NCBI GenBank assembly: GCA_003696125.1
Contig: RFHZ01000026.1
Coordinates: forward strand, 1-5,976
Reading direction: 5' to 3'
DNA from: Nitrospinota bacterium
GTDB taxonomy: Bacteria > Tectomicrobia > Entotheonellia > J063
DNA: 5,976 nt
The notes under the pieces were generated by a model. It did no database searches and had not been told where the DNA came from. It saw only the letters and a program-made list of their open reading frames with translations. How positions within the stretch are numbered: the stretch's first letter is position 1; each line of letters begins with the position of its first letter. This document shows, one piece after another, positions 1,485 through 5,961 of this stretch. The position numbers and the translations under genes were made by a program.

Positions 1485-1561
1485 AAAGAATGATTCTCGG
1501 AGGCTCTGAGCCAAAGTGAAGAGGAGAAAGCGTAGAGAGGTAGCATCTTCAACGGAAAACA

Positions 1562-1570
1562 GGGAGGGAG
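1562..1570 (+). promoter_or_regulatory. Ribosome binding site of the solute-binding protein gene
   Basis: GGGAGGGAG contains GGAGG at 1563-1567, eight bases before ATG 1576. It favours that start over the in-frame GTG at 1516, which has its own GGAGG (1499-1503) but at a longer 12-base spacing. Confidence 0.7.
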
Positions 1571-1575
1571 CGCAT

Positions 1576-3042
1576 ATGCTATTTGCAGGAAAGCTTAGCA
1601 GGCGAAGTTTCTTCAAACGGACCGGAATGGCTGCTGGCTCAATGCTCCTGGGAAATCTCTTCTCCAAACTGGCCATCCTGGAAGCGTGGGCACAGGACGG
1701 ATACCCTCCCACCTTCCGCCAGGTGTTCAAAGTGGACCAGATCACCGATCCGCTCTGGAAACAGAAGCTCCGCTGGTATAACGTGTCTGGTTTGGCCGGC
1801 GACCCGGCCCAGGTCCTCAATGCCAAAAAATTCGAGGAGTATTTCGGGTGTAAGACCGAAGGGGTGCCGGTCGCTCATGAAAAAATGGCGGACATCCTGC
1901 TGACCGATATCCGGGCAGGCACCTCAGAGGCGGATGTCTGGCAGTTTACCTTCCCCACCCTGTTCTCTTTATATATCCAGAATCATGGACTCGAAGAGAT
2001 CAGCGACTTTGCCACCACCCAGGACGCCTGGGTTCCTTCTATGAAAGAAGCCCTTACCTTCCCCCAGGCTTCCTTTGAGGGGTTTGGAGGCGGTCCCAGC
2101 GACTTCCCGTACAGGAAAGGACTCTATGGTATCCCGGTCCGCACGCTCTTCTGGGGAGGGTGCTTCTACAACAAAATCGTGTTTAAGAAGGCAGGACTCG
2201 ACCCGGAAAAAGACCTGGAAACGGTACCCGAATTCTTAGACGCGCTCCGGAAGATCAAGAGGGACACCAAGGTCAAGTATCCGCTTGTCTTCCCCTACTC
2301 GGCGGTCACCGAAGGGGTGCAGATCCCCATAAGCTGGTTCGTCCGCTTCGGAGGGCGAGAATTCGATGAAAAGGGGAATCCGCAGTTCGATTCTCCAGAG
2401 TATCTCGAAATGCTCAAGTTCATGAATACCCTGGTCAAGGAAAAGCTGGTCTCCAAGGGGATCCTGACCATCACCGAAGGGGAAGCCACCGCTTCCTTCT
2501 ACCGGGGGGAAGCCGCGGTCATGTTCAACTCCCAGGAAAACATCCTCTTTACCCAGCTTGCCGAGGTTACCGGCAAGGGTTTTGAGAAGGAATTCGAGGG
2601 GAAAGTGGCCTGGGATGTTGCCCGCACCACCCATATGCCCACCCTGGAAGGGATCGGGTATCGGGATTGGAAGAAGACCTTCTCCGGTTGTGGGGTAGGG
2701 GAGTGTACCGGTGTGCCGATCATGTCCAAACGGAAGCGTGCGGCCGCCATCTTTGCCGATTTTCTCAGCTACCCGGACTGCCAGGCGGCAGAGTTCCTCA
2801 TCGAGGGGAACCTCCCGATCCGTGCCGACATCTTCGACCTCCCCTATGTCCGCGAGGGAGCTCCCTATCCGGAACACATGAAGGAAGCGCTGGAGAACAT
2901 GTACCTGGTGAGCTACCCGAACATGTTTGAAATTCTCCAGGCCCGGTACGAAGAGATCACCGAGATGATTAACGGGGTGAGGACCCCGGAGGAGACACAG
3001 GAGAGGATCCAGTCTCGCGTAAAATCCATCTTAAGCCGGTAA
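1576..3042 (+). CDS. Tat-exported ABC transporter solute-binding protein, carbohydrate type (family 1)
   Basis: This 488-residue protein would capture a solute, probably a sugar or sugar derivative, in the periplasm and deliver it to the permease pair encoded just downstream. The N-terminus is a clear twin-arginine signal: SRRSFFK at residues 8-14, a hydrophobic stretch (GMAAGSMLLGNLF), then an AWA cleavage site with the mature chain from about Q40. There is no lipobox, so it should be soluble after cleavage. The mature part has hallmarks of the MalE/UgpB-like family: a ligand-lobe region around YGIPVRTLFWGGCFYNK, the segment GNPQFDSPEYLEMLKF at about 267-282, and the FYRGEAAVMFN motif at about 308-318. 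ATG 1576 was chosen because it puts the arginines nine residues in and has a good ribosome site. GTG 1516 would add 20 basic residues. Five cysteines in the mature chain are more than usual for such proteins. The exact substrate cannot be told. Confidence 0.9.
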   Translation: MLFAGKLSRRSFFKRTGMAAGSMLLGNLFSKLAILEAWAQDGYPPTFRQVFKVDQITDPLWKQKLRWYNVSGLAGDPAQVLNAKKFEEYFGCKTEGVPVAHEKMADILLTDIRAGTSEADVWQFTFPTLFSLYIQNHGLEEISDFATTQDAWVPSMKEALTFPQASFEGFGGGPSDFPYRKGLYGIPVRTLFWGGCFYNKIVFKKAGLDPEKDLETVPEFLDALRKIKRDTKVKYPLVFPYSAVTEGVQIPISWFVRFGGREFDEKGNPQFDSPEYLEMLKFMNTLVKEKLVSKGILTITEGEATASFYRGEAAVMFNSQENILFTQLAEVTGKGFEKEFEGKVAWDVARTTHMPTLEGIGYRDWKKTFSGCGVGECTGVPIMSKRKRAAAIFADFLSYPDCQAAEFLIEGNLPIRADIFDLPYVREGAPYPEHMKEALENMYLVSYPNMFEILQARYEEITEMINGVRTPEETQERIQSRVKSILSR

Positions 3043-3069
3043 GAGGAACTATCTGCACAACGGTAGAGG

Positions 3070-3111
3070 TGCGTCATAAAGCCCTCTCTCCACAGAGGGC
3101 TTTATGACGCA
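3070..3111 (+). promoter_or_regulatory. Perfect 18-bp intercistronic hairpin between binding-protein and permease genes
   Basis: TGCGTCATAAAGCCCTCT (3070-3087) is followed by a six-base loop CTCCAC and then its exact reverse complement (3094-3111). It starts 27 bases after the binding-protein stop and ends two bases before the GGGGG ribosome site of the first permease. No T-run follows on either strand, so it is not a typical intrinsic terminator, though partial termination cannot be excluded. In sugar-importer operons such as malE-malF of E. coli, palindromes in this place protect the upstream mRNA from 3' exonucleases so the binding protein is made in excess over the permeases. The same role is the best inference here, with possible damping of permease translation because of the closeness to its ribosome site. 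Confidence 0.85.
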
Positions 3112-3113
3112 AA

Positions 3114-3118
3114 GGGGG
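3114..3118 (+). promoter_or_regulatory. Ribosome binding site of the first permease gene, abutting the hairpin
   Basis: GGGGG lies four bases before ATG 3123 and two bases after the last stem base at 3111. A ribosome bound here would cover the 3' arm of the hairpin. It supports ATG 3123 over the later in-frame ATG at 3147. Confidence 0.6.
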
Positions 3119-3122
3119 ATGT

Positions 3123-4064
3123 ATGAGTGTCGCAAGAGCCGGAGACATGCACCACCGGGAGTCGCTTCTGGTCCGCTACCAGCTTTGGTTTGAGCGCAGT
3201 TTCGCCTATGTGATGATGATGCCTTCTACCCTCTTTATCCTGGCCTTTGTCGGTTTCCCTTTTCTCCTCCTGCTGACCATGTCGGTCACCACCGGCGTGT
3301 TCTCCGTGGTCCAGCCCATCCGCTGGGTTGGCCTGCTCCATTACAAAAGAGCCCTTGCCAATACCGCGCTATGGAACTACCTGGGGAACACGGTGATCTA
3401 TGTGATCGGATCGATATGGGTAGGGGCGATACTCCATTTTCTGATTGCCTGGGCTTTGAACAACCTCAACCCGAAGTTCGAGCGCTTCTGGCTGACCTTT
3501 ATCCTCCTCCCCTGGGCCATTCCCTATGTCATCTCGGCCATGTTCTGGAAATGGATGCTGCAGGGAGATGTCGGCATCATCCCCTGGGTCCTGCGCGGAC
3601 TGGGACTGATAAGCGAGGAGTGGCAGTACATGAGTGGGAAATGGTCGGCCATGGCCGTGATCATCGTGACCCATATGTGGACCTGGGGACCTATTGCCAT
3701 CACCCTGATGAACGCCGGATTTAAAGGGATTCCCCAGCAGATGTACGAGGCAGCCCAGGTAGACGGTGCCAATCCCTGGCAACAGTTTCGCTACATCACC
3801 TTTCCCTTCATGAAACCCTCCATCCTGGTATCGGTGGTCATGCTCAGCATGTTCACCATGCGACAGATGGGAGAAATCCTGACCCTGACCGAAGGGGGAC
3901 CGGGCAAAGCGACCACGGTACTGGCCATCCATATCTACCGGAACCTGGTCCTGTATGGAAGACCAGAATATGCGTCGGTGGTAGGAATCCTGCTCATGAT
4001 CGCCACCGTTGTCCTGGTCTGGATCATCCATAAGCTTATTGCTCCCCGTTATGAACTGGATTAG
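3123..4064 (+). CDS. ABC transporter permease, MalF/UgpA type
   Basis: This 313-residue inner-membrane protein is one half of the transmembrane channel of a carbohydrate-type importer. Six hydrophobic segments can be read at about 30-53, 88-111, 122-143, 175-196, 232-250 and 284-304. The cytoplasmic EAA loop that docks onto the ATPase is intact: YEAAQVDGANPWQQF from residue 208, with E209-A-A and G215, followed by the conserved proline of TFPFMKP. The segment LTEGGPGKATTVLAIHIY at about 256-272 is also typical of this branch. The short N-terminus without the large periplasmic loop of E. coli MalF resembles UgpA and most bacterial sugar permeases. It follows the binding-protein gene by 80 bases, most of which is the hairpin, and precedes its partner by 64 bases. 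The substrate is not deducible. Confidence 0.94.
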   Translation: MSVARAGDMHHRESLLVRYQLWFERSFAYVMMMPSTLFILAFVGFPFLLLLTMSVTTGVFSVVQPIRWVGLLHYKRALANTALWNYLGNTVIYVIGSIWVGAILHFLIAWALNNLNPKFERFWLTFILLPWAIPYVISAMFWKWMLQGDVGIIPWVLRGLGLISEEWQYMSGKWSAMAVIIVTHMWTWGPIAITLMNAGFKGIPQQMYEAAQVDGANPWQQFRYITFPFMKPSILVSVVMLSMFTMRQMGEILTLTEGGPGKATTVLAIHIYRNLVLYGRPEYASVVGILLMIATVVLVWIIHKLIAPRYELD

Positions 4065-4114
4065 GAGAGGGTGCCGGCAAGGATGGTGTAGCGATCTGGA
4101 GGTCCCGGAGAAAA

Positions 4115-4120
4115 AGAGGT
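4115..4120 (+). promoter_or_regulatory. Ribosome binding site of the second permease gene
   Basis: AGAGGT lies eight bases before ATG 4129. The 64-base gap (4065-4128) otherwise shows only an eight-base palindrome TGCCGGCA at 4072-4079 and no terminator-like stem, so read-through from the first permease gene is expected. Confidence 0.55.
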
Positions 4121-4128
4121 AGAGATCG

Positions 4129-4998
4129 ATGCAGATACCCATTGCCTTTAAGGCGACCAAGACGACCTATCGACACATCAGAAAGGGTTTTACCTATCTC
4201 ATCCTCTTCTTTGTCATCATCTGGACCGGTTTCCCGGTCTTTTGGGCCATCCTCACCTCGCTAAAGTCGTGGGGAGATGCGGTGCGCCTCCCCCCGCTCT
4301 TCTGGGGATTCGAGGTGCAGTGGTCGAACTATGTGCGTATCTTTAACCCGCAATTCGCCTTTGGAAGCTACCTGGTCAACGGACTCATCGGTGCCACCGG
4401 TGCCACCTGTATCGCCCTGATCCTGGCCATCCCCCATGCCTATGTCATCTCGAGATTCCAGCACAAAAAGCTCATCCTCGCCTCCCTGTGGGCCGTGCTG
4501 GGAGCCAGACTGGCCCCTCCGGTCACCCTGGCCGTCCCCATGTACATCATCTACATGCGCCTCCATCTGTTAAACACCAAGCTGGGGGTCGTGCTCATCC
4601 TGACCTTCCTCTACGAGCCGTTCATGGTATGGATCCTGAAAGGCTTTTTCGATACCATCCCCACGGAAATCGAAGAGTGTGCCCGCATCGACGGCTGTAC
4701 CAGGCTGCAGTCGGTCCGCAAGATCGTTTTACCCCTTATCGCCCCGGCTGTCGGGGCCTCGATCATCGTGAGCTGGCTGATGGCGTGGAACGAATTCATC
4801 ATGGTCTTCCTCCTGACCAGTACCAAAAAAGCGGCCACGGTCCCGGTAGGGATCTTGAATTTCACCCTGGACAGGAATATCCCCTACAACCTGATGATGG
4901 CCGCCGGGGTGGTCGGAATGGTGCCCACGGTTCTCCTCATCCTCTTCTTTGTGCGCTACCTGATTCGCGGTCTGGCCGAAGGAGCCATGAAACAGTAA
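4129..4998 (+). CDS. ABC transporter permease, MalG/UgpE type
   Basis: This 289-residue inner-membrane protein should pair with the MalF-type permease just upstream. Hydrophobic segments lie at about 21-44, 84-106, 117-142, 152-172, 204-229 and 254-277. The cytoplasmic coupling loop reads EECARIDGCTRLQSVRKIVLP, from residue 182; the core is E183-C184-A185 with G189, so the first alanine of the EAA motif is a cysteine. The glutamate, the second alanine and the glycine that matter most for ATPase docking are kept, and I regard this as a tolerated family variant. The tail RGLAEGAMKQ is typical of MalG-like proteins, showing the gene is complete. Length is normal for the family. No ATPase gene follows; the next gene is trmB, 30 bases on. 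Confidence 0.94.
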   Translation: MQIPIAFKATKTTYRHIRKGFTYLILFFVIIWTGFPVFWAILTSLKSWGDAVRLPPLFWGFEVQWSNYVRIFNPQFAFGSYLVNGLIGATGATCIALILAIPHAYVISRFQHKKLILASLWAVLGARLAPPVTLAVPMYIIYMRLHLLNTKLGVVLILTFLYEPFMVWILKGFFDTIPTEIEECARIDGCTRLQSVRKIVLPLIAPAVGASIIVSWLMAWNEFIMVFLLTSTKKAATVPVGILNFTLDRNIPYNLMMAAGVVGMVPTVLLILFFVRYLIRGLAEGAMKQ

Positions 4999-5028: not shown

Positions 5029-5961
5029 ATGCAGCCACGCTATCTCTCGCTCAAATCCTTTCTCCCCTGGAAGCAGGTATCCCATCCGATCGACTGGACA
5101 GCGCAATTCGGGCGTGCAGCGCCCCTGGAGGTAGAGATCGGCTTTGGCAATGGGGCCTTTCTGGTGCGGCAGGCGCAGATGTATCCGGAGCGGAATTTCA
5201 TCGGCCTGGAGCTGGAGTGGGCCTCGGTGCAACGCGCCCTGCGGAGAATCGCCCAGGCCAACGTTCATAACGTGCGCCTGCTGCAGGTCGATGCCCGGAC
5301 CGCCTTTGAGCGCTTCTTCCTTCCCCAATCCCTCACCTACGTCTACTCCCTTTTTCCCTGTCCCTGGCCCAAGAAGCGCCATGCCAAGCATCGTCTCTTC
5401 TCACACCCCTTCTTACAACTCCTGAACAGCCGCCTGGTTCCGGAAGGAGAGGTGCAGATCGTTACCGACCACTATCCCTATCTGCAATGGGTATTGGAAC
5501 AGGTATCTGACACCGGCTTTGCCGTCCACTGGAAACAGATCCCTCCCCGCTTTGATACCAAGTATGAACGCAAGTGGTATGAGCAGGGACAGGAACAGTT
5601 TTACGAACTCCGACTCCATAAAATCACCCACCTGGACATCCCGGTAAAGGAGGAGATCAGGGTGGAGACCTACTGGGTAGAATGCTTTGATCCGGATCGT
5701 TTTCAACCGGTCAACGAACGACAAGCGGCCACGGTTGAGTTCAAGGAATTCCTCTACGACCCGAAGCGTCTTAAGGGCATGGTACGCGTGGTGGTGGCCG
5801 AAGAGAACCTGGTGCAGAGCTTCTGGATCGAGATCGTCCAGCGGGAGGGACGCTGGCAGATCCGGCCGGCGCGTGGTTGCGATGTGGTCCCGACCCTGGG
5901 GGTGCAGCGAGCCCTCGACCTGGTGCGAGATGCCGCTCTCCGGCCATGTGCCTCGGAATAG
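5029..5961 (+). CDS. trmB: tRNA (guanine-N7-)-methyltransferase with C-terminal extension
   Basis: TrmB transfers a methyl group from S-adenosylmethionine to N7 of G46 in the tRNA variable loop, in the cytoplasm. The 310-residue product shows the SAM-binding motif VEIGFGNGAF (35-44), the acidic LELEW after the second strand (60-64), VDAR (87-90), the family signature at 109-118, the TD pair at 146-147 and the C-terminal signature TKYERKWYEQG (177-187). Usual bacterial TrmB proteins end soon after this last motif, at about 210-240 residues. Here about 110 more residues follow, including EFKEFLYDP and a strand-rich stretch MVRVVVAEENLVQSFWIEI. Aquifex-type TrmB has a comparable tail that supports dimer stability and fidelity. 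The signature reads FPCPWPKKRH instead of FPDPWPKKRH: the aspartate, thought to act in the active site, is C111 (TGT at 5359-5361). The family call is firm; activity is uncertain because of this change. Spacing suggests co-transcription with the importer. Confidence 0.93.
   Translation: MQPRYLSLKSFLPWKQVSHPIDWTAQFGRAAPLEVEIGFGNGAFLVRQAQMYPERNFIGLELEWASVQRALRRIAQANVHNVRLLQVDARTAFERFFLPQSLTYVYSLFPCPWPKKRHAKHRLFSHPFLQLLNSRLVPEGEVQIVTDHYPYLQWVLEQVSDTGFAVHWKQIPPRFDTKYERKWYEQGQEQFYELRLHKITHLDIPVKEEIRVETYWVECFDPDRFQPVNERQAATVEFKEFLYDPKRLKGMVRVVVAEENLVQSFWIEIVQREGRWQIRPARGCDVVPTLGVQRALDLVRDAALRPCASE

Follow-up and report, generated by a model that had tools for sequence, protein, structure and literature searches.

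The window, by which we mean the whole stretch of 5,976 nucleotides analysed here, ends with a trmB gene that forms an open frame from the ATG at 5029 to the stop codon at 5959-5961. It is preceded by a methyl-accepting chemotaxis protein gene with HAMP domains (2-1255), present with its 3' part since the contig starts within it, and by an ABC-type sugar transporter (1516-4998) made up of two permeases and a solute-binding protein whose signal, RRSFFKRTG, is twin-arginine-like. Between the transporter and trmB there is no gene for an ATPase. The features of trmB are listed below with their basis in parentheses.

5029..5961, + strand: trmB, 310 aa, long-form tRNA (guanine46-N7)-methyltransferase homologue (TIGR00091, PF02390, model compared with 3dxz)
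5134..5154, + strand: SAM-binding motif I EIGFGNG, residues 36-42, intact (E36, G38 and G40 do not vary in alignment A1)
5353..5382, + strand: signature FPCPWPKKRH, canonical form FPDPWPKKRH (translation; alignment of 173 proteins)
5359..5361, + strand: TGT, Cys111, at the site of A. aeolicus Asp133 and E. coli Asp144 (alignment with E. coli TrmB, published role)
5464..5469, + strand: Thr146-Asp147, equivalent to E. coli T179-D180, intact (D147 present in all of 142 Cys and 28 Asp proteins)
5557..5577, + strand: TKYERKW, residues 177-183, with the T217 and E220 equivalents, intact (T177, E180 and W183 invariant in A1)
5626..5958, + strand: C-terminal domain formed by residues 200-310, with a helix and about four long strands (AlphaFold2 prediction of the domain alone, pLDDT 91)

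The preliminary description had assigned the gene to TrmB, and this identity is upheld by a TIGR00091 score of 128.8 bits, above the curated equivalog cut-off of 112.65, and by the TrmB fold of the predicted structure; the score against PF02390 is 146.2 bits (threshold 24). The whole-protein model (pLDDT 94, pTM 0.89) has as its top structural matches E. coli TrmB, B. subtilis TrmB and human METTL1 (class I methyltransferase fold), with Z 25.5 over 190 residues at 2.2 A for E. coli TrmB (3dxz) and Z 24.0 for B. subtilis TrmB (7nyb). The sequence marks SAM motif I, T-D, T-x-x-E, and H118 and R122 of the signature are present in the window protein. Asp-type TrmB is recognized by the Asp in PDPWPK, where the window protein has Cys111; by sequence, the window lineage is a Cys variant of TrmB and not an Asp-type enzyme. 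The position of the Cys111 side chain is not fixed by the model because the signature loop (residues 111-120) was predicted with a mean pLDDT of 61.

Cysteine at the Asp site and its distribution

Bases 5353-5382 read TTT CCC TGT CCC TGG CCC AAG AAG CGC CAT. In the alignment with E. coli TrmB, Cys111 falls on the Asp of FPDPW, and a constant offset of 33 residues leads to Asp144; D147 and R122 correspond to D180 and R155 by the same alignment, and T177 and E180 were taken as the equivalents of T217 and E220. Reviews regard the PDPWPK Asp as the catalytic centre of TrmB/Trm8, and the A. aeolicus variants D133A and D133N lost activity (PMC6320965); in E. coli TrmB, D144A lowers the rate more than 150-fold, with the variant still able to bind tRNA (PMC10130221). 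The proposed roles of this Asp vary between papers, being either the capture of a guanine N-H (PMC6320965) or a hydrogen bond to the adenine N6 of SAM, and contacts to O6 and N1-H of G46 have been proposed for E. coli T179-D180 (PMC10130221). The preliminary description was right that a Cys, encoded by TGT at 5359-5361, has taken the place of a residue implicated in catalysis. In the literature searched, which left subscription papers mostly outside, we found no report or discussion of a PCPWPK or FPCPWP motif, nothing on m7G in Thermotoga, and nothing on the activity or nucleoside content of any Cys-TrmB.

A contig scan gave 80 loci, all with Cys, and is uninformative on frequency since its seed pattern contained Cys; frequencies were therefore taken solely from the same-phylum set, the phylum draws and a domain-wide draw. 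The collection holds five genomes of the same phylum, and all four others have Cys in proteins 60-66% identical. In one genome of the phylum (G001) the trmB match comes in two pieces in different frames (L007, residues 1-229, and L008, residues 233-307), possibly as a result of a frameshift or sequencing error. Cys was present in 31 of the 31 genes read from Thermotogota and in 30 of 30 from Synergistota, both drawn without selection for Cys. The Desulfobacterota draw (n = 13) gave 3 Cys, 8 Asp, 1 Leu and 1 Arg, the Armatimonadota draw Cys in one of four, and the Omnitrophota draw (n = 20) 1 Cys, 18 Asp and 1 Phe, the phylum draws leaning slightly to Cys through the inclusion of centre genomes reached via Cys loci. 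At the threshold applied, 57 of 61 Armatimonadota and 37 of 58 Omnitrophota genomes lacked a TrmB match. Outside the window's class, the domain-wide draw gave 24 TrmBs, of which 20 have Asp and one each has Cys, Val, Leu and Asn. Whether a clade shares the Cys, a check proposed at the outset, is answered positively by the phylum mates, the Thermotogota and the Synergistota, and as far as sequences go, Cys at the Asp site is the normal state of a large bacterial TrmB lineage. The earlier claim that the Asp is nearly invariant in TrmB holds for the short TrmBs and fails for the long forms, where Cys is the usual residue in several phyla, with cases of Leu, Val, Phe and Arg besides.

A sequencing or assembly error, or contamination, might be suspected behind Cys111 because the source assembly is fragmented and carries about 8% contamination, but the probability of this is practically negligible: the step from GAT or GAC to TGT takes at least two base changes, as had been pointed out before, and the same Cys is shared by independent genomes of several phyla, some of them complete. 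Relatives with the identical Cys rule out sequencing error or chance as its origin.

Leu, Arg and Phe at this site are found in members of the Cys lineage that keep the other motifs (L156, L160 and L169, respectively). The Leu, Val, Phe and Arg cases look like later changes since they are mostly nested inside Cys groups on the tree. The Asp may have been lost in other lineages too, to judge from two long TrmBs of the domain-wide draw, L249 (FPVPWDKKPH) and L270 (FPLPWPHKKH). The best quick tree places the Thermotogota-Synergistota group apart from the window's group, yet a single Cys clade was not rejected (p-AU 0.72) and the likelihood improved when the Cys proteins were held together, so that one or two origins of the Cys both appear possible.

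The long form, conserved residues and copy number

All full-length Cys proteins carry the C-terminal domain (residues ~200-310), predicted to be small and strand-rich with a final helix, in which Gln263, Trp276 and Thr289 are conserved. Among TrmBs without this domain, 37 of 38 have Asp and the remaining one, a second copy, has Asn; among those with the domain there are 148 Cys (a count that takes in loci selected for Cys), 9 Asp, 2 Leu, 1 Phe, 1 Arg and 1 Val, and every residue other than Asp and Asn was found in a long form. By these counts the loss of Asp clearly goes with the C-terminal domain, an association that is descriptive only, the independent events being too few for an independent-pairs test. 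The domain has no Foldseek match in PDB at E <= 0.001 and no Pfam family. A KA1 fold was considered, but the best VIA-align match (Z 6.5, a KA1 domain) is too weak to claim it; a weak likeness (Z 5.7) was also seen to the KA1-like RNA-binding region of the RNA methyltransferase METTL16.

Residues E36, G38, G40, P112, W113, K115, R122, D147, T177, E180 and W183 are conserved at 97-100% in 142 Cys proteins, and across 55 aligned proteins, the most distant at ~26% identity, C111 is one of 18 invariant residues. The preliminary remark that all other motifs look intact is therefore upheld for the lineage as well as for the window protein. A compensating residue that switches together with the Cys was sought and rejected, as no other column fully separates Cys from Asp proteins; F39 and E/D43 lean toward Cys proteins, yet the Asp-type E. 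coli enzyme has F39 and the window protein has Ala at 43.

In the window's genome, PF02390 matches one full-length gene; the other match consists of 30 residues of SAM motif at 21 bits. A single full-length TrmB was found in 46 of 47 other Cys genomes, which include complete single-contig genomes, although the assemblies searched differ in quality; one MAG (G019) has two full-length TrmBs, apparently both Cys. No second, Asp-type TrmB was found in the window's own genome or in the 47 others, where the weak extra PF02390 matches are mostly SAM motif only. The search for a second trmB that had been recommended thus yielded no full-length copy, and the suggestion of an inactive enzyme backed by another TrmB elsewhere is unsupported.

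In tRNAs sampled from six Cys genomes including the window's own, G46 is present in 43 of 45 five-base variable loops. Both exceptions were annotated as tRNA-Leu, a tRNA whose variable arm is normally long, and were probably misparsed. The presence of G46 in host tRNAs is weak support for m7G46 modification because G46 is also structurally conserved.

Function of the Cys lineage and alternative explanations

We consider it likely that the window trmB encodes a working, sole-copy m7G46 methyltransferase of a long-form Cys lineage. Most likely the long-form subfamily lost the Asp in one or two ancient replacements, and the residue is not chemically indispensable; the Cys proteins keep the Cys and the other important residues down to ~26% identity to the window protein. 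Guanine N7 has no proton and, being itself the nucleophile, would attack the methyl group of SAM directly, so that no general base should be needed and a positioning role for the Asp appears most plausible. The side chain at 111 would help to hold either the adenine of SAM or the guanine in place, a task that Cys111 might share with the retained Thr146-Asp147, Arg122, Thr177 and Glu180, perhaps with assistance from the C-terminal domain; with Thr146-Asp147, the guanine contact in another proposal, retained, Cys at 111 could be tolerable. The strict retention of Cys, together with the occasional Leu, Phe or Arg in proteins that keep the other motifs, suggests a role in packing or positioning rather than thiol chemistry. 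We infer the activity, the m7G46 product and the manner in which Cys substitutes for Asp. What speaks against a working m7G46 enzyme is that A. aeolicus TrmB is also a long form, yet is reported to be dead as D133A or D133N (PMC6320965), and that the E. coli enzyme is slowed so strongly by D144A (PMC10130221). A more specific proposal, that long-form TrmBs dispense with the Asp because Cys111 and the C-terminal domain (Gln263, Thr289) position the substrate in an unseen way, is put forward as a rather doubtful one.

Four further readings of the Cys would lead elsewhere, one of them being the assembly artefact dealt with above. The earlier suggestion of altered specificity would make the Cys lineage a SAM- and tRNA-binding methyltransferase acting at another position or on another nucleoside. 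The lineage-wide replacement of a residue to which capture of the guanine N-H has been ascribed (PMC6320965) agrees with this, as does the conserved C-terminal domain, which in A. aeolicus is reported to affect the choice of guanine; Thr146-Asp147, Arg122, Thr177 and Glu180 are nevertheless unchanged, the protein is the sole TrmB, and the tRNAs retain G46, which leaves such a change of specificity unlikely. A low probability is likewise given to a Cys that is active chemically or as a regulator, its thiolate acting on SAM or guanine or serving as a redox switch, in a truly different catalytic arrangement such as the preliminary description had also suggested. Near-fixation of the Cys over very long times (142 of 146 proteins of Cys lineages), in place of drift, speaks for an active thiol, but N7 methylation needs no covalent intermediate, and the rare members with Leu, Phe, Arg, Val or Asp keep the other motifs, which indicates that the thiol is not strictly required. 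Very improbable is the loss of catalysis with survival as a tRNA-binding protein or chaperone: Ala or Asn at the site kills or nearly kills Asp-type enzymes and E. coli D144A still binds tRNA, but the SAM-binding residues are invariant across phyla, which would be unexpected after such a loss.

If the favoured reading of a working m7G46 methyltransferase is right, and m7G46 is made by Cys enzymes throughout at least two phyla and in parts of others, the accepted role of the Asp needs revision, and the Cys enzymes are a ready natural test of its supposed catalytic role. If no m7G46 is made, these bacteria either lack the modification or have a different one, and the trmB label given automatically to their genes is misleading.

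Comparison with known TrmB enzymes

The Campylobacterota-type TrmB (NF010719) is a weak match to the window protein, with 95 bits against a cut-off of 402. L249 (416 aa), which we take to be a Campylobacterota-type TrmB, also lacks the Asp, but has Val instead of Cys, and further signature residues are unlike those of the window protein. The E. coli and B. subtilis enzymes (3dxz, 7nyb) have the fold, motif I, T-D, T-x-x-E and the His and Arg of the signature in common with the window protein at ~30% identity, and differ from it in having Asp at the site and no C-terminal domain. The TrmB enzymes of A. aeolicus and T. thermophilus have a long C-terminal region that is reported to affect stability and site choice (PMC6320965, PMC6313347). 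In this "thermophilic" type the catalytic domain is followed by the long C-terminal region, as in the window protein, a likeness drawn from published descriptions; A. aeolicus TrmB has and needs Asp133, whereas the window lineage has Cys.
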